Assembly: GCF_017921895.1 (NCBI RefSeq)
Contig: NZ_JAFIDN010000008.1
Coordinates: 1 to 64,000, forward strand
Direction: 5' to 3'
From: Natronogracilivirga saccharolytica
GTDB lineage: Bacteria; Bacteroidota; Rhodothermia; Balneolales; Natronogracilivirgulaceae
Length of the DNA stretch: 64,000 bases
Positions 48,645 through 61,171 of the stretch are shown here, one piece after another (position 1 is the stretch's first letter; each line of letters starts with the position of its first letter). Under the pieces are notes generated by a model. It saw only the letters and a list, made by a program, of their open reading frames with translations. It made no database searches and was not told the origin of the DNA. The translations under genes were made by a program, and so were the position numbers.

Positions 48645-48878
48645 GGTGAATCAAAATTGTACAGATCACGGCTAAGCGATCAAATGTGATGAAAAAAGAC
48701 AATTAGTTGGTAAAACAAGATCGAAAAAAAATTTCTCCTAAAATACAATCTCAAAGCGATTGCACAAAGTAATCAGAACCCTGATTTTGTGCTCATTTAT
48801 ACGCCACCATTAGGCATGCACGCATTTTTTTGTATCTTAAACAGGTATTTTCGGGTTTTTAATATTATTGCAAACAAA

Positions 48879-51800
48879 ATGAATATGATTTCACTGGTTA
48901 CCTTAATATTACTTTCGGCATTTGGTGGCAGCACAAACAGCAACGCTCCGCATCAGATCCCGGATGGATTGTATTCTTTTTACTCCGGAAACAATGAATC
49001 TGTGAACACCAGAACTCCGGGTTCCAATGACAATGAAGAAGCGGATAACAGCCGGGATGATGATGACAATGTAACAAAACCGGATGATCACTGGGAAGTA
49101 GAAGGTGATCAGTGGGATGAGTGGCCGACGCGCGACATCCGCTTTGAGACCGACGAAGGAACATGGATGAACCTGGATGTCTGTCCGGACGGGGAGTACA
49201 TCGTTTTTGATCTGCTTGGAGATATCTACAGAATTCCGCTGAGCGGAGGCGAGGCTGAACTGCTCTCCGGCGGAGCGGCTTTCGATATGCAGCCGCGCTA
49301 CAGTCCGGACGGGGAAATCATTGCCTTTACCAGCGATCGCGGCGGCGGTGACAATATATGGCTGATGAATGCCGACGGGTCCGACCGGCGCGCCATAACC
49401 GATGAATCATTTCGCCTGCTCAGCTCACCGTTCTGGACGCCTGACGGCGATTATATTGTTGCAAGGAAGCACTTTACGGGGACACGATCTCTCGGAGCCG
49501 GTGAAATCTGGATGTACCACGTGCAGGGCGGAACCGGGCTGCAGTTGACCGAAAAGGAGAGCTGGACTTCTGATCAAAATGAACCGGCAGTTTCTGCCGA
49601 CGGCCGCTGGCTCTATTACAGCTTTTCCGGACCGTTTGATTACAACCGCGACGTTCATGAAGGAATTTACCAAATCAACCGGTTTGACCGGCAAACAGGG
49701 CGTAAAGATCCTGTAACCAGAGCAACCGGAGGAGGAGTGCGTCCCACACCCTCACCCGATGGAGAAAAACTGGCTTTTGTCCGGCGTATCGGGAACAAAT
49801 CCGCATTGATGATCCGTGATATTGAAAGCGGAAGAGAACGTGTTCTTTATGACGGACTTGATCTTGATCAGCAGGAAACCTGGGCAATTCACGGTCTTTA
49901 TCCTGCCTTTGCCTGGACTCCCGACAATGAACAGATTATCATATCTTTTGACGGGAAAATTAACCGCATTGAGGTTGAAACCGGTTCCGTGACCCCGGTG
50001 CCATTCGAGGTTATGGTTGAAAAGAAGATCGCCGATGCCGTTTCGTTCGATTTTCCGGTTGCGGATGATACTTTTCGTTCGAGAATGATACGCTGGCCGT
50101 CGCTGACACCGGATAAAGAACAACTGATATTCCAGGCGGCCGGGCACATTTACAGGATGGATCTGCCTGACGGAAAACCTGAGCGGATCACGGAATCAGA
50201 AGGTCATTTGGAATATGCGCCATCGGTATCCGATGACGGCAGGTATGTGGTTTACACAACCTGGGATGATGAAGCCGGAGGCCATGTGAAAAAGGTCCGG
50301 CTTGACCGGCCGGATGATGTAACCCAGCTGACATCGCAGCCTGATCAGTATGCCAATCCGGTATTCTCTCCTGACGGCGATAAAGTTGCCTTTCTGCAGG
50401 GCAGCGGAATCGTCAACCGCGGAAAAAACATGAGCTCCGAGTTCTTCCTAAATATCAAGTTAAAAGATCTCGAATCAGGTGAGATAACACATGTCACCGA
50501 AACACCCAACAGAGGTGCCAACCGGCGCATGCCGCGGATGCAATGGAGTTTTGACGGATCAAGGCTGTACTACTTCGAGACCAAGGACGGGGAAACGCGC
50601 TTGTCCAGCATTAAACCTGACGGCAGCGATGACACGTATCATGTCAAAAGTGAAACAGCAGAAGAATTGCTGCTTTCACCCGATACCCGTTACATCGCAT
50701 TTAAGGACATGCACAACATCTATGTAGCTCCGATGCCGCGGGCCGGCGGTGACCCGCTTGAAATTTCGGCGGGAAGCGAATCCATCCCGACCAGAAAAAT
50801 TACTCGCTACGGAGGAGACTGGATCAGCTGGTCAGCAGATTCCCGCGATGTTGTTTTTGCTTTGGGTGATGCGGTATACCGGCAGCAGGTGCGCCCGCTC
50901 TTTGACAGAAAGAATCTCCCGGAGAAAAATGAAGAAAACCGTGATGACTGGAGAGCTGGTAATGTAACCTACGATCCGGATATTTTTACCGTGGAACTTG
51001 AACTTCCGGTTGACAAACCATCCGGAATAACGGCTTATCAGAATGCACGTATCATAACCATGGACGGCGAAGAGGTTATCGAAAACGGGACGATTCTGGT
51101 AGAGGATAACCGCATCCTTGAAGTCGGTCCGATGGATGAAATAAACATTCCGGATGACGCCAGGGTTTTTGATGTTTACGGAAAGACTATTATGCCTGGT
51201 ATAGTGGATGTTCATGCACATATGGGCTATACGACGCTGGACATTACTCCCGACCGGCTCTGGGAGTACGAGGCCAATCTTGCTTACGGAGTGACGACAA
51301 CACACGACCCGTCGGCCAGTACGCAGTCGGTGTTTGCTTTGGCGGAACAGGTAAAGTCGGGACGCATGACCGGTCCCCGGATTTACTCTACCGGCTATAT
51401 TCTGTATGGCGCCGAAAATCCGAACCGTGCCATAATCGAAAGCCTTGACGACGCCCGTTATCATTTAAAACGACATCGTGCCGTAGGTGCGACATCGGTA
51501 AAGAGCTATAACCAACCGCGCCGTGATCAGCGGCAGTGGGTGCTGGAAGCTGCCAGGGAGGTGGGGCTGAATGTTTTCCCGGAGGGAGGATCCATGCTGC
51601 AGCACAATATCACCATGATCATAGACGGCCACACAGGTATCGAGCACGCCATTCCGGTCGCACCGCTTCGAACCGACATGCTGGCATTGCTTGGCGTTTC
51701 CAATGTGGGATATACACCGACTCTGGTGGTCGGATACGGAGGGATCTGGGGCGAAAACTACTGGTATCAGAAAGAAAATGTTTTTGAAAACCGGCGGCTG

Positions 51801-52253
51801 CTTCAGTTTGTTCCGCGCCATGTAGTTGATGCAAGATCACGCAGAAGGCTCAAGGTCCCGGATGAGGAGTTCTATCATTTTGAACTGGCGCGTTCGGCAA
51901 GGCAGGTTGTAAGGGCAGGAGGCAGGGTACAGCTTGGTGCCCATGGTCAGCTGCAGGGACTGGCTGCACACTGGGAGCTCTGGATGCTGGTTCAGGGTGG
52001 CATGACAGAAATGGAAGCCTTGCGGGCGGCGACTATTCACGGAGCCGATTATATCGGACTGGCTGATGATCTTGGGTCCATCGAACCCGGCAAACTGGCC
52101 GATTTCATCGTTCTGAATCAGAATCCGCTGGATGATATTGCCTACTCGGAATCAATATACATGGTGGTCAAGAACGGCCGGGTCTGGGACAGCAATCTGA
52201 ATGAGTTGTTTCCCCGAGAATCGGAGAGAAAGCCGTTTCGGTTTGAAAGGTGA
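48879..52253 (+). CDS. Secreted amidohydrolase with N-terminal PD40 propeller
   Basis: 1124 residues from ATG 48879, which gives a proper signal peptide (MISLVTLILLSAFGG); the frame is open to 48789. An acidic linker is followed by repeated TolB/PD40 blades (ARYSPDGEIIAFTSDRGG-type repeats; PVFSPDGDKVAFLQG), then an amidohydrolase barrel from about residue 735: IMPGIVDVHAHMG (two metal His), ATSVKSYN (Lys), GHTGIEH, and LGAHGQ, ending LGSIEPGKLADFIVLN. This PD40-amidohydrolase pairing is a known Bacteroidota/Proteobacteria architecture thought to act on peptides or imides; the actual substrate is not known. It stands alone. Confidence 0.88.
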   Translation: MNMISLVTLILLSAFGGSTNSNAPHQIPDGLYSFYSGNNESVNTRTPGSNDNEEADNSRDDDDNVTKPDDHWEVEGDQWDEWPTRDIRFETDEGTWMNLDVCPDGEYIVFDLLGDIYRIPLSGGEAELLSGGAAFDMQPRYSPDGEIIAFTSDRGGGDNIWLMNADGSDRRAITDESFRLLSSPFWTPDGDYIVARKHFTGTRSLGAGEIWMYHVQGGTGLQLTEKESWTSDQNEPAVSADGRWLYYSFSGPFDYNRDVHEGIYQINRFDRQTGRKDPVTRATGGGVRPTPSPDGEKLAFVRRIGNKSALMIRDIESGRERVLYDGLDLDQQETWAIHGLYPAFAWTPDNEQIIISFDGKINRIEVETGSVTPVPFEVMVEKKIADAVSFDFPVADDTFRSRMIRWPSLTPDKEQLIFQAAGHIYRMDLPDGKPERITESEGHLEYAPSVSDDGRYVVYTTWDDEAGGHVKKVRLDRPDDVTQLTSQPDQYANPVFSPDGDKVAFLQGSGIVNRGKNMSSEFFLNIKLKDLESGEITHVTETPNRGANRRMPRMQWSFDGSRLYYFETKDGETRLSSIKPDGSDDTYHVKSETAEELLLSPDTRYIAFKDMHNIYVAPMPRAGGDPLEISAGSESIPTRKITRYGGDWISWSADSRDVVFALGDAVYRQQVRPLFDRKNLPEKNEENRDDWRAGNVTYDPDIFTVELELPVDKPSGITAYQNARIITMDGEEVIENGTILVEDNRILEVGPMDEINIPDDARVFDVYGKTIMPGIVDVHAHMGYTTLDITPDRLWEYEANLAYGVTTTHDPSASTQSVFALAEQVKSGRMTGPRIYSTGYILYGAENPNRAIIESLDDARYHLKRHRAVGATSVKSYNQPRRDQRQWVLEAAREVGLNVFPEGGSMLQHNITMIIDGHTGIEHAIPVAPLRTDMLALLGVSNVGYTPTLVVGYGGIWGENYWYQKENVFENRRLLQFVPRHVVDARSRRRLKVPDEEFYHFELARSARQVVRAGGRVQLGAHGQLQGLAAHWELWMLVQGGMTEMEALRAATIHGADYIGLADDLGSIEPGKLADFIVLNQNPLDDIAYSESIYMVVKNGRVWDSNLNELFPRESERKPFRFER

Positions 52254-52258
52254 TTTGT

Positions 52259-53302
52259 TCAGAGGTGCTGTGCCTGCTTTTTTTCCGATAAGACCCAGTT
52301 GACATATAAAAACTCCAGTGCCGCGGCTTCAAAGCCCTGCCAGGGTTTAATCATCCGGCGGAACGCTTCTTCGCTGCAATGATCCGGATCTCCTCCATAG
52401 GCAAGGATGATCCAGCGGCGAACGGCTTTTTCCTGTCCTTTCTGTTTGTGGCTGGCAAACCACCCGTCTGACCTGTTTCGGAAAAGGATCAGATCCTGAG
52501 CGGTTGTCGGACCGATACCCCTGATGGAAACCAGGCTTTCATACAGCGCTTCCGGCGGCATCAGTTCAAGCCTGTTATATGTTTCTTTAAGAGAGTCAGC
52601 AGCAGATTGTTTTGAATCGTTCGCAACTCCTTCTGCTGCATGTGTATCCGGTTCGGGACCGCCTCCACCTGCAAGCCTGCCGTGAAGCAGCTCGTGTGCC
52701 AGCTCTGTCAGATACTCACCCTTTCTGAGTGACAGCCCGTATTGTTTCATGGCCCGGGGGTCGGCTGAGACAAGCCGTTGAGGACGTGGCCAGGCAGGAA
52801 TGACCCTGTTGCCGCTCTCAAGACGCGTGCCGTAGGCATTGCGGACCTCATGGACCATTTTTCTGGCCGTCGGCTTGTGTTTGATCTGAGTCCGGATAAT
52901 ACGATTGACCGCATCTTCAAAAATGTTTGCACGACTGATGCGCTTCAGGCCGTAAAGCTCCCGGAGAGGGCCGGCCAGTACCGGATCGTTTCCAGCCTGA
53001 TCATACAGGGGAGTCACATCAAGATCGGTTCCCAGGATCCGGCGAAGTATGCTGTCAGCCTCTGCTTGCTCAGCATCAGTGAGTGATTCATGTGCCCGGA
53101 TGGTGAACGAGGGTGAGTCAACATCCCCGTTAAAGAAAATGGTGACCAGCACATCCCTGTCAGAAAGCGGTACGGGTCTTGTAAATCCCTGTTCAAACAG
53201 TTCTTCCGGTTGATGCTCATGATCAAAATAGGAGTCGACATCCAGACACAGGAAAAAATCGTGAGGAGGACGTGACGGAATTTTCCAGATATGTTGAGCC
53301 AT
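52259..53302 (-). CDS. AlkA-like HhH-GPD protein without the usual catalytic Asp
   Basis: 347 residues. The C-terminal half has the HhH-GPD layout: ANIFEDAVNRIIRTQI (helical core) and the hairpin LVSIRGIGPTTAQDLILF, as in 3-methyladenine DNA glycosylase II. In AlkA the catalytic Asp comes four residues after the Phe that follows the hairpin (FLPDD). Here that region reads GWFASHKQKG and the equivalent position holds Lys286, with no Asp nearby. A Gly/Ser-rich insertion (AGGGGPEPDTHAAEG) splits the core. It may be a structural DNA-binding relative or use another residue. It converges with the amidohydrolase gene. Confidence 0.75.
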   Translation of the reverse strand: MAQHIWKIPSRPPHDFFLCLDVDSYFDHEHQPEELFEQGFTRPVPLSDRDVLVTIFFNGDVDSPSFTIRAHESLTDAEQAEADSILRRILGTDLDVTPLYDQAGNDPVLAGPLRELYGLKRISRANIFEDAVNRIIRTQIKHKPTARKMVHEVRNAYGTRLESGNRVIPAWPRPQRLVSADPRAMKQYGLSLRKGEYLTELAHELLHGRLAGGGGPEPDTHAAEGVANDSKQSAADSLKETYNRLELMPPEALYESLVSIRGIGPTTAQDLILFRNRSDGWFASHKQKGQEKAVRRWIILAYGGDPDHCSEEAFRRMIKPWQGFEAAALEFLYVNWVLSEKKQAQHL

Positions 53303-53329: not shown

Positions 53330-53689
53330 TCAACCGAAAATGACAGTCATGATCCGGAAAGCCAGCCAGATATAAAAGGCTGATATGACTGAAACAAAGA
53401 TGTTCGGTTTGAATGTGATATATTTATATCGAACCATAAGCGGGAGTACCAGAAACTCCAGGGCAATGACAATGCCCAGCATATAGAATGCCAATGGCGT
53501 GAAAAAGTATTCAAAAAACCAGAGCGCCATTGCGGCGATGAGGTTGAACAGACCAAGGGGAGTGGTGAAAACTTCTACAAGCAATCTTCCCAAAGGTTCA
53601 TTGGAAAGCAGCATCTGCAAAAGTATGTTGAGAATAAACAACAGAATAAATACCGTGATGGTCAGGGAGGTCCTGGTCTCTTTTGCCAT
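53330..53689 (-). CDS. Small membrane protein of unknown function
   Basis: 119 residues with three or four hydrophobic helices (TITVFILLFILNILLQMLL; LFNLIAAMALWFFEYFF; MLGIVIALEFLVLPLMV; FVSVISAFYIWLAFRIM). No motif recognised. It lies 27 bp upstream of the AlkA-like gene on the same strand. Confidence 0.6.
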   Translation of the reverse strand: MAKETRTSLTITVFILLFILNILLQMLLSNEPLGRLLVEVFTTPLGLFNLIAAMALWFFEYFFTPLAFYMLGIVIALEFLVLPLMVRYKYITFKPNIFVSVISAFYIWLAFRIMTVIFG

Positions 53690-53805: not shown

Positions 53806-54660
53806 ATGAATTCATCACCTGAAATACGAATAACAAAGGCATCAGGGGAGCTTGTTCCTTTTTCTGAAAAGAAACTCCGGCAATCACTGGAACGTGCAGG
53901 TGCAGCCGAGCCGCAGATTTCGGCAGTCGTGGATGATGTCAGAGATCAGTTGTACCACGGCATCGGAACCGGCAAGATCTATCGCAAGGCCTATGACCTT
54001 TTAAGGAAAAAATCGTATGCCAATGCGGCCCGGTACAAGCTGAAAAAGGCGATAATGGAGCTGGGGCCGTCCGGATATCCATTCGAGCAGTTCGTCGCTG
54101 CCATTCTGGAACAGCAGGGATTTCAGACCAGTGTGGGAAAGGTCATCAAGGGAAAATGCGTTACGCATGAAGTCGATGTTGTTGCGCAAAAAAACGGAAA
54201 ACTCATCATGGCAGAGTGTAAGTTCCACAACAGACCGGGGGTGAAATGTGATGTCAAAGTCCCGCTCTACATCGACTCCCGGTTCCGGGATGTCATGAAC
54301 GGCAGTTTCAACGGCTCGTATTCTGATCATGAAGGATGGATTGTCACCAATACCCGTTTTACGGATGACGCCATCAGTTACGGCACCTGTGCAGGCCTGG
54401 TGATGCTTGGATGGGATTACCCGAAAAAAAGCAGCCTGAAAAAGCGGATAGGCCTGGCAGGACTTCATCCGCTTACCTGCCTGAGTTCGCTGCAGCAAAA
54501 GGAGAAAGCGTTCCTGCTCGAAAAGGGTGTTGTGTTATGCCGGAGAGTCCGCGAAAATGAGTATCTGCTCAGGGAGCTCGGGTTATCTGACACGCGCATC
54601 AAAAAAGTTATCAGCGAATGCGACGAACTGGTCAATGAGCTTGATGTCCCGCCGGAGTGA
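53806..54660 (+). CDS. ATP-cone domain fused to a PD-(D/E)XK (Mrr-like) nuclease domain
   Basis: 284 residues. The N-terminal ATP-cone (about 7-88): IRITKASGELVPFSEKKLRQ, then YRKAYDLLRKKSYANAARY, the nucleotide-binding fold seen in ribonucleotide reductases and NrdR. Residues 91-205 form a restriction-endonuclease-like core: YPFEQFVAAILEQQGF, HEVDVVAQ (Asp124) and AECKF (Glu137, Lys139), a complete PD-(D/E)XK triad of the Mrr type. A helical C-terminus (210-284) is unassigned. The pairing suggests a nuclease controlled by ATP/dATP level, a plausible defence or repair switch. No methyltransferase or defence partner is next to it. A single-gene unit flanked by ordinary genes. Confidence 0.75.
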   Translation: MNSSPEIRITKASGELVPFSEKKLRQSLERAGAAEPQISAVVDDVRDQLYHGIGTGKIYRKAYDLLRKKSYANAARYKLKKAIMELGPSGYPFEQFVAAILEQQGFQTSVGKVIKGKCVTHEVDVVAQKNGKLIMAECKFHNRPGVKCDVKVPLYIDSRFRDVMNGSFNGSYSDHEGWIVTNTRFTDDAISYGTCAGLVMLGWDYPKKSSLKKRIGLAGLHPLTCLSSLQQKEKAFLLEKGVVLCRRVRENEYLLRELGLSDTRIKKVISECDELVNELDVPPE

Positions 54661-54709: not shown

Positions 54710-55513
54710 CTACTTCTTTTCTGAGATACGGTTATCCATCAGTCTGTGGTCTGCTGAAAACAGCACCCGGTAGGCAAGCAGTACGACACCAAGGGTAGCC
54801 AGAGCCGTACAGGCAGCTACCATGAACATAATTACAATCTGATAGCGCACGGCATCCATGGGATCGGCTCCGGCCAGAATTTGTCCGGTCATCATGCCGG
54901 GCAGACTGACAATCCCCATTATCATCATCGCATTGACGGTCGGTATCATTCCCGTACGGAGTGCCTCACGTATTTGCTCGTGGGCGGCCTCCCATCGGCT
55001 TGCCCCGTGGGAAAGCATGGTTTCAATCCAGTTTCGGTTTTTAAGGCATTCCTCCATCATCCGGTCAAGTCCCAGCGAAATACCAGTGAGCGCATTGCCA
55101 AGCACCATTCCGAGCAACGGAATCATATACTGTGGGTCGTACCAGGGGGTAACATTCAAAATGCCTGTTATGGCTGCTCCCGTCACAAGAAAACCGCTGG
55201 TTCCAATGGTGACAAGGCTGTTCCAGTAAATTCCCGGAAAACGCCGGCTGGTCCGGTGCACCGCCGCAATACCGGCAAGTCCGGCCATGATCAGCGCCAT
55301 TAAAATAATCAGCAACGGCTCCCGTGTCTGAAAAATCCACTCCAGAATGAATCCAACCAAAACCAGCTGTACGGTCATCCGGATGGCAGATACAATCAAA
55401 TCCCTGCCCAGGCCCAGGCGCAGTGCCACTGACAATGCGATGTTCACTATGAGCAGCAGTGCGGCCAGGCCCAGCTGCACATTGCTGATGAAGATATAGG
55501 ATGTATTATCCAT
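54710..55513 (-). CDS. fetB: FetB-like iron-export ABC permease
   Basis: 267 residues with about seven membrane helices, UPF0014/FetB family: IRMTVQLVLVGFILEWIF, FLVTGAAITGI, MIPLLGMVLGNALTGISL and the MIMGIVSLPGMMTGQILAGADP signature. FetAB of E. coli lowers cytoplasmic iron and protects against peroxide. Start 55513 overlaps the end of the ATPase gene by 8 bp. Confidence 0.85.
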   Translation of the reverse strand: MDNTSYIFISNVQLGLAALLLIVNIALSVALRLGLGRDLIVSAIRMTVQLVLVGFILEWIFQTREPLLIILMALIMAGLAGIAAVHRTSRRFPGIYWNSLVTIGTSGFLVTGAAITGILNVTPWYDPQYMIPLLGMVLGNALTGISLGLDRMMEECLKNRNWIETMLSHGASRWEAAHEQIREALRTGMIPTVNAMMIMGIVSLPGMMTGQILAGADPMDAVRYQIVIMFMVAACTALATLGVVLLAYRVLFSADHRLMDNRISEKK

Positions 55514-57904: not shown

Positions 57905-60900
57905 GTGAACACCTCTGCCAAATACCGTGTACGACTCATTGCTGTTGCAGCGCTTCTCATTATCATCCAGTCATGCCGCACTCCGGATCCCGCTGTGACA
58001 CCCGAACCTGAACCCGAAGATCCGCGCATAGAACGCATCCGCGATGCCGTCAATAAAACCATCGATGAAATGTATGAAACCGGCGAACCGGTTGAACTGA
58101 CCACCGCCGTTGAAGTGGACACCATCCTGCTGGACGATGAAGCCATGACCATCGATATCCATATGAATGAGCGGTTTTCATACTCTCCGCTGCGGCCGGA
58201 TATCAATGATCAGATTTACAGCCTGCTGGATGAAAACATGCACCGCAGATTCCGGAATTACAAGGTAACCCTTTATTCCCTTGAAGAACCCATTTCGAAT
58301 CTGGTTCCCAATATGTACCGGCGATCGCCGGAAGCTTATGACCGCGAGCGCATGCCTTATGCCGATGAACTGCGGCCGCTGCCCATTGTGCGGCGGCATG
58401 ACCGGAACGTTGAGCCCGGCCACGGCCTCGAGGGCCGGCAGATTGCTTTATGGCACAGCCACGGATGGTATTATGAAAAGCAGAAGCAGCGATGGGAATG
58501 GCAGCGCCCCAGATTGTTTCATACTTCGGAGGACCTGCTGCCGATGGCATTCACCATCCCGTATCTGATCCCGATGCTGGAAAACGCCGGTGCCCATGTC
58601 TGGGTGCCCCGGGAGCGCGACATCCAGAAAAACAAAGTGGTGGTCGATTTTGACAGCTCATCGTTCGAAAGCCGCGTCGCATTTCGCAGTTTCACAGGCA
58701 GTACACCGGTCAGCCGCGATGGCCATGATACCGCAGGTGAGGAGTGGGAGGATGCTGATCCTCAGACATGGCAAACCGACGAGCCAGGCTTTGCAATTGG
58801 CAGTCCTCCCTATAAGGATGGAGAAAATCCGTTCCGGATGGGATCCTATCGCTACATCGAATCAGATGAAGATGGTGCATCGGCCATTCAATGGATACCT
58901 GATATTCCGGAAGACGGGAAATATGCCGTTTATATCTCTTATGCCTCGCTTGAAGAGTCGGCGGAGGATGCATTCTATTCGGTATATCACCGCGGTGGCC
59001 GGACCGATTTTTCTGTCAATCAGACCATCGGCGGCGGGACCTGGGTCTATCTTGGCCATTTTGAGTTTGATGAAGGCGTGAATCCGGAGCAGGGAAGGGT
59101 AGATCTGGTCTCCTACAGCCAGGAATCATCGCTGATTACCGCCGACGCCGTCCGTTTCGGTGGCGGAATGGGCAACATCGAAAGAGAAGGACAGACAGGA
59201 GGCCGGCCCCGCTATCTCGAGGCGGCTCGTTACCATTTGCAATACTCCGGCATGCCCGACTCCCTGGTTTATGCGCTCAGTGACGGACGCTCCGATGTTG
59301 TTGACGATTTTCAGGGCCGCGGGGAGTGGGTGAATTACTTGCGAGGTGCACCATACGGACCCAACAAAGACCGTGACACCCCCGGACTCGGCATCCCCAT
59401 TGATGCCTCGCTTTCGTTCCACACCGACGCCGGAATCACCCGCAACGATACGGTTGTAGGCACGCTTATGATCTACAGCATTGAAGACGGCGACTCACTG
59501 CGCAGGTTCCCCGATGAGGTTTCCAGGCTGACCAACCGGGATTTTGCAGATATCATGCAGACGGAAATTGTTGAGGACATCCGCAGCACCTGGGATCCGG
59601 CATGGAACCGGAGGCACCTGTTCAACCGGAAGTACAGTGAAGCATTTCGCCCGAACGTCCCGGCCGTGCTGCTCGAGCTGCTGTCCCATCAGAATTTCCT
59701 GGATATGCAGTATGCGCTGGATCCGAGGTTCCGCTTTGATGTCAGCAGAACGCTGTATAAATCCATGCTGCGGTTTATTTCAGATCGCTATCAGGTAGAT
59801 TATATCGTGCAGCCGCTTCCCGTCAGCAATTTCCGCATCACGGCAACCGGTGATGATAGTGTCAGGCTGCGCTGGAATGCAGTTTCTGATACCCTCGAGC
59901 CTACGGCAGATCCGGACCGCTACATCGTCTACAAGAAGAAAGGGGACAAGCCCTTTGACAACGGACGGATCACTGAACAGACTCAGATTACAGTTGACGG
60001 TCTGACTCCCGGCGAGATGTATCAGTTCAAGGTGGTGGCGGCCAATGATGGAGGAAAAAGCTTTCCATCCGAAAAACTGGCGGTTTCTCTGCAGGACAAC
60101 CCGGGCCCCTCGGTGCTTATCGTAAATGGATTTGAAAGGGTGTCCGGTCCTGCCATTGTGGATGAACCCGGTTTCAAGGGATTTGCCAATTTTTCGGACC
60201 GCGGTGTTCCGGACCGGTATGATATCAGTTTTACCGGTGATCAGTTTGATTTTGACCCGGATTCAGAATGGCTGACAAACGATGCGCCCGGCCACGGAGC
60301 CAGTTACGCTGACTATGAAACCCGGGTTATTCCCGGCAACAGTTTTGCCTTTCCTGCTGTTTACGGTGAATCATTGCAGCAGCTTGGACTTTCGTTTTCA
60401 TCGGCAAGCATGGCCTCAATACGTGACCGGCAGGTTGATATGTCAGATTATGACGCCGTAATTTTGATTTTTGGAATGCAAAAATCAACGCCCTGGCCCA
60501 AACAGGAGCTGCTTGACCGTGAACCCGCTTTCCCCGTTTTCCCTGAACGGACACGGGAAGAGATTGCAAGATATCTCAAGCTCGGGGGAAGATTGTTCAT
60601 AAGCGGAGCACATGTAGGGTCTGATGCAGCAGATCGGGCCGGTGACGATCCCGGGGTATTGGATTTCATTCAGGACACTCTGGGCTATTCCAGCGAAACA
60701 AATCATGCTGCCAGGACCGGGGATGTCAGGGTCGTTTCAGATTCGTTGCTGCCGGTAAATACCCGCTTTTCCTTCAATACGGAGTACCACCGGGATATCT
60801 ACATTACAGATGCTCCGGATGCCATTGAGCCGTACGGAGATCCGGTGGAACCCGGTGTTTCATCCGTGGATGACGGCGGGGCGCAGAATGATGCCCTGAT

Positions 60901-61171
60901 CATGAAAACGGCCGATACTTCCGGCACAGCAAGTGAAGAAACCATCAAAAACAAGAAGCGGCTTTCTACCGGAAATCTGTATCCGTTAGGACCGGAAACA
61001 CTGATACGCTTTGAAGAGAATCAGTTCAGTGCCGGGGTTGGTAAAAGAACGGGCACGCACGCAGTGGTGACATTCGGCTTCCCCTTTGAGACCATCAAAG
61101 AGCGGGATGAACGCCGGCTTGTCCTCGAAGGTGTAATGAAGTATCTGGGAGTTCTGGAGGCTGCGGATTAG
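57905..61171 (+). CDS. Lipoprotein amidase with inserted golvesin-like domain, FnIII and C-terminal domain
   Basis: 1088 residues from GTG 57905; lipobox IIIQSC (Cys24) and a Pro/Glu linker. An Amidase_3-like N-acetylmuramoyl-L-alanine amidase is split: zinc-ligand-like IALWHSHGWYY (His184/186) and the TSEDLL Glu209 lie before, and SFHTDAG (His506) and VLLELLSHQN (Glu591) after, a golvesin C-terminal-like domain (about 250-420; RMGSYRYIESDEDGASAIQW, YVYLGHFEF-like strand, ITADAVRFGGG). FnIII follows (about 640-730), then a 350-residue C-terminal domain (VLIVNGFERVSGP, DYDAVILIFGMQK). This architecture exists in Bacteroidota, sometimes labelled xanthan lyase. Likely role: surface peptidoglycan or polysaccharide hydrolysis. 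The end overlaps the opposite SDR gene by 77 bp. Confidence 0.8.
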   Translation: MNTSAKYRVRLIAVAALLIIIQSCRTPDPAVTPEPEPEDPRIERIRDAVNKTIDEMYETGEPVELTTAVEVDTILLDDEAMTIDIHMNERFSYSPLRPDINDQIYSLLDENMHRRFRNYKVTLYSLEEPISNLVPNMYRRSPEAYDRERMPYADELRPLPIVRRHDRNVEPGHGLEGRQIALWHSHGWYYEKQKQRWEWQRPRLFHTSEDLLPMAFTIPYLIPMLENAGAHVWVPRERDIQKNKVVVDFDSSSFESRVAFRSFTGSTPVSRDGHDTAGEEWEDADPQTWQTDEPGFAIGSPPYKDGENPFRMGSYRYIESDEDGASAIQWIPDIPEDGKYAVYISYASLEESAEDAFYSVYHRGGRTDFSVNQTIGGGTWVYLGHFEFDEGVNPEQGRVDLVSYSQESSLITADAVRFGGGMGNIEREGQTGGRPRYLEAARYHLQYSGMPDSLVYALSDGRSDVVDDFQGRGEWVNYLRGAPYGPNKDRDTPGLGIPIDASLSFHTDAGITRNDTVVGTLMIYSIEDGDSLRRFPDEVSRLTNRDFADIMQTEIVEDIRSTWDPAWNRRHLFNRKYSEAFRPNVPAVLLELLSHQNFLDMQYALDPRFRFDVSRTLYKSMLRFISDRYQVDYIVQPLPVSNFRITATGDDSVRLRWNAVSDTLEPTADPDRYIVYKKKGDKPFDNGRITEQTQITVDGLTPGEMYQFKVVAANDGGKSFPSEKLAVSLQDNPGPSVLIVNGFERVSGPAIVDEPGFKGFANFSDRGVPDRYDISFTGDQFDFDPDSEWLTNDAPGHGASYADYETRVIPGNSFAFPAVYGESLQQLGLSFSSASMASIRDRQVDMSDYDAVILIFGMQKSTPWPKQELLDREPAFPVFPERTREEIARYLKLGGRLFISGAHVGSDAADRAGDDPGVLDFIQDTLGYSSETNHAARTGDVRVVSDSLLPVNTRFSFNTEYHRDIYITDAPDAIEPYGDPVEPGVSSVDDGGAQNDALIMKTADTSGTASEETIKNKKRLSTGNLYPLGPETLIRFEENQFSAGVGKRTGTHAVVTFGFPFETIKERDERRLVLEGVMKYLGVLEAAD

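Follow-up and report, generated by a model that had tools for sequence, protein, structure and literature searches.

The locus at positions 53806..54660 (+) of the 64,000-nucleotide stretch of Natronogracilivirga saccharolytica DNA analysed here (the window) raises the question of what a protein that joins a regulatory nucleotide-binding domain to a nuclease would do for the cell. An earlier note had read the gene as a fusion of an ATP-cone with an Mrr-type nuclease, possibly switched by nucleotide level, for instance in phage infection or stress. The gene runs from ATG to TGA and encodes 284 amino acids. By Pfam search, an ATP-cone domain (PF03477) covers residues 8-76 (53827..54033, +) with 29.7 bits against a curated cut-off of 25.8 (E 9.5e-7), and 32.3 bits in a second search. 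It is followed by an Mrr-type PD-(D/E)XK nuclease core (PF04471, Mrr_cat) at residues 89-193 (54070..54384, +), with 29.4 bits against a curated cut-off of 21 (E 9.3e-7). The earlier reading had overlooked a third part, an AF1548-like C-terminal helical domain at residues 222-275 (54469..54630, +), which PF22357 matches with 22.7 bits in one search and 25.7 in another (cut-off 23.9). The sole PDB sequence match that phmmer returned up to E 1 was AF1548 of Archaeoglobus fulgidus (PDB 1y88), aligned to residues 95-276 with E 1e-34.

A structural model of the protein was built on 48 sequences (47 of 80 similarity-ranked loci and the window); a separate alignment comprises 31 of those 80 loci and the window. 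The full-length model has a mean pLDDT of 91.6 and a pTM of 0.85. By structure comparison, its nuclease and C-terminal parts match 1y88 with Z 21.0 over 183 residues, at 36-37% identity; the solved AF1548 chain, on the other hand, lacks an ATP-cone, its alignment with the model starting at residue 86. For the cone, fold comparison was needed because the search by sequence was weak (residues 1-95 against the PDB gave RNR as best match, E 0.14) and the first PDB matches of the cone profile were designed helical repeats, which we put down to composition. We observed that NrdR superimposes on model residues 4-81 with Z 11.8 and rmsd 1.5 over 78 residues, which indicates that the cone fold is present, and that the E. 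coli RNR cone matches the first 80 residues with Z 10.4 and rmsd 1.8 over 74 residues. The cone modelled alone was poorer, with a pLDDT of 77.2 and Z of at most 8.3 to RNR and NrdR, near the level that the tool calls 'common'. The window protein thus shares its fold with the cones of NrdR and of the RNR large subunit, but the part fused to its cone is a nuclease instead of a Zn-ribbon or a reductase.

The nuclease core also resembles the repair endonuclease 2vld (Z 10.2), EndoMS 5gke (Z 9.9) and the CARF nucleases Card1, Can2 and Cdn1 (Z 9.6-10.7 by structure comparison). With these last effectors the protein would have in common the core fold and the principle of a ligand-gated PD-(D/E)XK enzyme, a likeness in the way of working only; Pfam detects no CARF domain in the window protein, in which the ATP-cone would take the place of the sensor, and we noticed no CRISPR genes among the named neighbours of the window gene and of its relatives. 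Since the Pfam domains and the structure matches agree, the fusion announced by the earlier note is real, and on the model the cone-nuclease is an AF1548-type nuclease with the cone placed in front.

The predicted catalytic residues D124 (54175..54177, +), E137 and K139 (in E137-C138-K139, 54214..54222, +) are intact in the window, as the earlier note had claimed. Each of them is kept in 77/77 rows of an alignment made of an evenly drawn phylum sample and the window, so that the loss in homologues which could have spoken against a nuclease was not seen in these rows. Another alignment, of 93 rows ranked by similarity, consists of the window, 80 loci and 12 of 29 other phylum-sample loci (a filter on ORF position dropped 17); in it the D is kept in 92 rows, the E in 93 and the K in 92. 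The catalytic residues of AF1548 are predicted as D38, E51 and K53 in the Global Ocean Sampling paper (PMC1821046), and the window residues have the same 13/2 spacing, by which D124 is equivalent to D38. Around the triad, H121, E122 and C138 are invariant in the 77 rows, while C118 is found in 74 and H141 in 70. The Cys and His residues C118, H121, C138 and H141 (window 54157-54228, residues 118-141) interleave with the catalytic residues, a pattern in the alignment that suggests a metal or redox site.

Does the cone bind a nucleotide? According to a study of the E. coli RNR (PMC11447812), its cone binds the phosphates through K9, R10 and K91, recognises the adenine through E15 and discriminates between ATP and dATP by means of H59. 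We inferred the equivalence between the window and RNR cones from equal spacing relative to the K-x-x-G and T-x-x-I-[HY] motifs, and by that spacing the site residues of the window cone are K11, A12, V17, K23, T55, I58 and Y59. K11 (53836..53838, +), the counterpart of the phosphate-binding K9 in E. coli RNR, is a K in 76/77 rows; K23 is kept in 75 rows, T55 and Y59 in 72 each, and Y77 is near-invariant too. The KRDG motif, which the E. coli RNR cone has but which may not define the whole ATP-cone family, is incomplete in the window, where KASG keeps the K and the G but not the R and the D. In contrast to the RNR cone, the window cone lacks equivalents of R10 and E15: position 12 is variable (A in 37/77 rows, the window among them), and position 17 is E in 36/77 rows and V in the window. 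Because the lysines of the site, T55 and Y59 are conserved, a nucleotide site in the cone appears plausible. The nuclease carries the sole ATP-cone found in the window genome. A class II ribonucleotide reductase of 1219 amino acids is also encoded there (L201:907-4566, at about 181-184 kb of contig C8), and it has no Pfam cone match.

The gene stands alone, as the earlier note stated, both of its neighbours lying on the opposite strand. The divergent neighbour encodes a membrane protein of 119 amino acids with no Pfam match (53330..53689, -), and the convergent one a UPF0014 (FetB-like) permease recognised by Pfam search (54710..55513, -). Of 10 Balneolales loci, 9 have the membrane-protein gene next to the nuclease gene, and at the remaining one the contig starts within the nuclease gene itself; the permease gene is likewise present at 9 of the 10. 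Between the ten Balneolales relatives, which are 64-76% identical, dN is 0.17-0.25 against a dS of about 1.8 to saturation; since dN is this low relative to dS, the gene is not a chance ORF and purifying selection acts on its protein. Within the family to which the window belongs, 14/20 genomes have the gene, as do 7/7 of those with a completeness of 90% or more and a contamination of 5% or less. The protein of the window lineage is best explained as a chromosomal nuclease passed on by vertical descent.

Other genes of the region can be described in passing. A HhH-GPD-like glycosylase gene (window 52259-53302), whose PF00730 and AlkA-like NCBIfam matches both fall below cut-off, stays near the nuclease gene in Balneolales. 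Window positions 48789-52253 encode a protein of 1154 amino acids with WD40-like (PD40) propeller repeats and an amidohydrolase domain, and positions 57905-61171 one of 1088 amino acids with golvesin C-terminal-like and fibronectin type III domains.

Across the phylum, the cone-nuclease is present in 72/395 genomes. We compared 77 phylum loci, that is 76 places with flanks and the window; the phosphorylase locus of one genome (L188 of G002) was left out, and the best piece was counted for matches in two pieces. A gene for a beta-CASP MBL nuclease lies immediately downstream at 41 of the 75 loci that have a downstream ORF. This partner, about 450-500 amino acids long, is in every case encoded on the strand of the cone-nuclease; the two genes are -140 to 55 bp apart, with several 4-bp overlaps. 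The close type of this beta-CASP protein (above 500 bits, a line set after the score gap was visible) occurs at 43 places in 41/395 genomes, and all 41 of these carry the cone-nuclease, against 72/395 overall (hypergeometric 2e-36, a value inflated since relatedness is ignored). At 42 of the 43 places it adjoins the cone-nuclease gene or sits one gene away, the exception being in genome G367. In the next tier of beta-CASP matches (400-470 bits, 13 genomes) the cone-nuclease is found in 3, which is the level expected by chance.

A tree was made from 157 rows, none under 200 amino acids, of which 151 were left after removal of identical ones. On this tree the beta-CASP linkage changes 12 times, and at least 6 of these changes are forced by well-supported branches. 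The window falls in a well-supported clade of 21 solo sequences. At 35/77 loci, the window among them, we saw no beta-CASP gene over a span of five same-strand genes, and the window genome has no beta-CASP match at E 1e-60. The closest solved relatives of the partner are the Thermus RNase TTHA0252, Cas14 of type VII CRISPR and CPSF-type enzymes, mainly RNA-processing enzymes. As these relatives mainly process RNA, RNA would be as likely as DNA for the target of the nuclease pair; the core of the cone-nuclease itself resembles DNA enzymes and CARF nucleases, and we therefore speak of nucleic acid as the substrate.

Larger clusters surround the gene in many relatives. Among the 80 similarity-ranked loci, many of which have short flanks so that neighbour counts are lower bounds, we observed genes for Usp at a minimum of 41 loci, beta-CASP at no fewer than 32, PRPP synthetase at 28 or more, archaeal-type thymidine/AMP phosphorylase at 27 or more, 2-hydroxyacid dehydrogenase at 22 or more and phosphofructokinase at 18 or more, nearly all on the strand of the nuclease. 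The archaeal-type phosphorylase is rare, being found in 3/395 phylum genomes, all three with the cone-nuclease and two of them (G198 and G253) with both genes close together; it was not found in the window genome. A Pontibacter plasmid carries cone-nuclease, MBL, phosphorylase and PRPP synthetase genes. A Criblamydia plasmid (L199; 6749-19552 of NZ_LK031773.1) has in a row genes for phosphoketolase, glgP, cone-nuclease, MBL, phosphorylase, PRPP synthetase and acetate kinase, and this presence of the whole cluster on a plasmid of an environmental chlamydia suggests transfer between phyla. The link to a housekeeping operon, which the earlier note had named as evidence against its reading, therefore exists for relatives, in the form of a turnover and stress cluster, and does not extend to the solo copy of the window.

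The partner genes also occur without the cone-nuclease. Plasmids of Legionella, Acidovorax and Thioclava (Pseudomonadota) carry MBL, phosphorylase and PRPP synthetase genes and no cone-nuclease, and a Sphingobium stretch has phosphorylase, PRPP synthetase and Usp genes, the MBL gene not being seen there. The three partner genes of the larger Bacteroidota and Criblamydia clusters recur in Bradyrhizobium diazoefficiens as the operon bll3117-bll3116-bll3115 (phosphorylase, PRPP synthetase and MBL), which is reported as microoxia-induced and FixK2-dependent, with values that we take as transcript fold changes of 15.4 for MBL, 7.7 for PRPP synthetase and 5.1 for phosphorylase; a phosphoketolase-acetate kinase operon of this bacterium is likewise microoxia-induced and FixK2-dependent (PMC6515984, PMC9104804). 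The operon as listed includes no ATP-cone nuclease, however, and the expression data are those of the partner operon. Upstream of gene or operon starts of the cone-nuclease loci, we observed no enrichment of the exact FNR/FixK-type palindrome TTGA-N6-TCAA: each set contains a single site, in 36,703 bases of upstream sequence for the 80 loci and in 39,853 for the 77 loci, the backgrounds being 0.038 and 0.048 per kb.

Judged from sequence and model, the anatomy, with its conserved cone fold, predicted phosphate-binding lysines and predicted catalytic triad, is still best read as that of a nucleotide-gated nuclease. That such an enzyme turns over nucleic acids when the cell is limited in energy or oxygen, in the window as a solo version, is the best-supported proposal, and we see its chances as evenly balanced. 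The cone would bind ATP, dATP or a related nucleotide via the conserved lysines K11 and K23; the nucleotide-bound cone may shift the oligomeric state, as in RNR and NrdR, and this change would permit or block cutting by the PD-(D/E)XK core, so that nucleic acid would be broken down in a controlled manner under a shortage of energy or oxygen. Many relatives would make the cone-nuclease together with the beta-CASP (probable RNA) nuclease and, in the larger clusters, also with enzymes turning nucleotides into sugar phosphates. Since the window lineage keeps the putative gated nuclease as a single gene, its partner, if any, would be encoded elsewhere or would not be needed. The turnover account is strongest for the operonic relatives and is inferred for the solo window copy; their role may not carry over because the window genome has neither the close beta-CASP gene nor the phosphorylase. 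The replaced R10 and E15 equivalents in the window and the absence of palindrome enrichment speak against the account.

A rival reading, which builds on the example given by the earlier note, is a single-gene anti-phage system, in which the cone would sense a nucleotide change in infection and release a toxic DNase. The pairing of a cone with a PD-(D/E)XK nuclease would suit such a role, as would the patchy presence of the gene across the phylum (72/395 genomes) and two plasmid-borne relatives, and the core weakly matches PADLOC models of CARF-PD-(D/E)XK effectors (best E 6.9e-5, residues 84-144 only). These are short matches of the nuclease core, and we saw no full-length match to a PADLOC system protein with system partners nearby; among 10 neighbouring proteins, chosen from the ORFs at about 40.8-62.2 kb, none matched a PADLOC model at E 0.001. 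No relative of the cone-nuclease was found in 50,697 phage records, nor in viral contigs queried with a single protein or, via two peptide patterns that distant relatives could escape, with an alignment. The defence reading is unsupported because the gene is fixed in the high-quality genomes of the family and keeps the same neighbours in Balneolales, the phage records and viral contigs yielded no relatives, the ten neighbours compared lack PADLOC matches and its relatives are tied to metabolic partners in a turnover and stress cluster; we consider it quite improbable.

Two further explanations bear on the substrate and on the cone. The protein could be a DNA repair or recombination nuclease which tracks the dNTP pool and cuts mismatched or branched DNA, as the likeness of its core to 2vld and EndoMS, a weak Hjc profile match (E 0.083) and the nearby glycosylase-like gene in Balneolales might suggest. 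The C-terminal domain of AF1548, which we take to have a helix-hairpin-helix-like fold, would point the same way. However, the 2vld and 5gke matches cover the shared PD-(D/E)XK core and AF1548 scores far higher, the glycosylase-like gene lies on the other strand with the membrane-protein gene in between, and the beta-CASP partner of 41/75 loci has mainly RNA-processing solved relatives, all of which makes a repair role unlikely in our view. The cone, for its part, could be a mere dimerisation or scaffold module that no longer senses, the nuclease being constitutive or controlled at the level of transcription. The change of KRDG to KASG, the variable position 12 and the V at position 17 would fit a silent cone, and a few RNRs do have non-functional cones which the Pfam profile does not distinguish (PMC4390871). 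Against this, K11, K23, T55, Y59 and Y77 are conserved beyond what packing alone would suggest and the model retains the full cone fold, so we regard a silent cone as unlikely.

A wider form of the turnover proposal, about which we are rather doubtful, treats the ATP-cone as a transferable energy gauge, controlling the breakdown of polymers within a module for low-energy survival. When ATP falls or AMP or dATP rises, cone-bearing enzymes would cut stored polymers: nucleic acid by the cone-nuclease and the beta-CASP enzyme, and glucan, in one genus, by a cone-glucoamylase. The products might feed phosphorylase, PRPP synthetase, phosphoketolase and acetate kinase, and ATP would be remade. If this were true, the bacterium would consume its nucleic acid as fuel, with ATP exerting the allosteric control. 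A fusion of an ATP-cone with a glucoamylase-family domain (PF10091) is encoded at L118:9351-10886 and also at L112, L115 and L119 (L207-L210), two genes downstream of the cone-nuclease and with a glutaredoxin-like gene between. Full-length matches to this cone-glucoamylase occur in 4/395 genomes, all of one genus. Its cone is 49-57% identical to that of the adjacent nuclease; the end of the domain (helix 4) is not recognisable, a caveat on the energy-gauge proposal, as is the solo state of the window copy.

In the open-licence literature, we found no paper describing the architecture of an ATP-cone with an Mrr/AF1548-type nuclease; Aravind, Wolf and Koonin, who reportedly named the ATP-cone in 2000, may mention a combination of ATP-cone and nuclease. 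Returning to nucleotide-gated turnover, if the gating is real, the reach of the ATP-cone, a domain known chiefly from work on dNTP synthesis (RNR and NrdR), extends to the destruction of nucleic acids. The near-obligate pairing with the close beta-CASP type (41/41 genomes in a sample of 395) points to a defined partner for the cone-nuclease, and it would give a function to a low-oxygen operon whose genes carry generic names only in the records examined. A finding that resembled phage defence now points to the physiology of energy stress.
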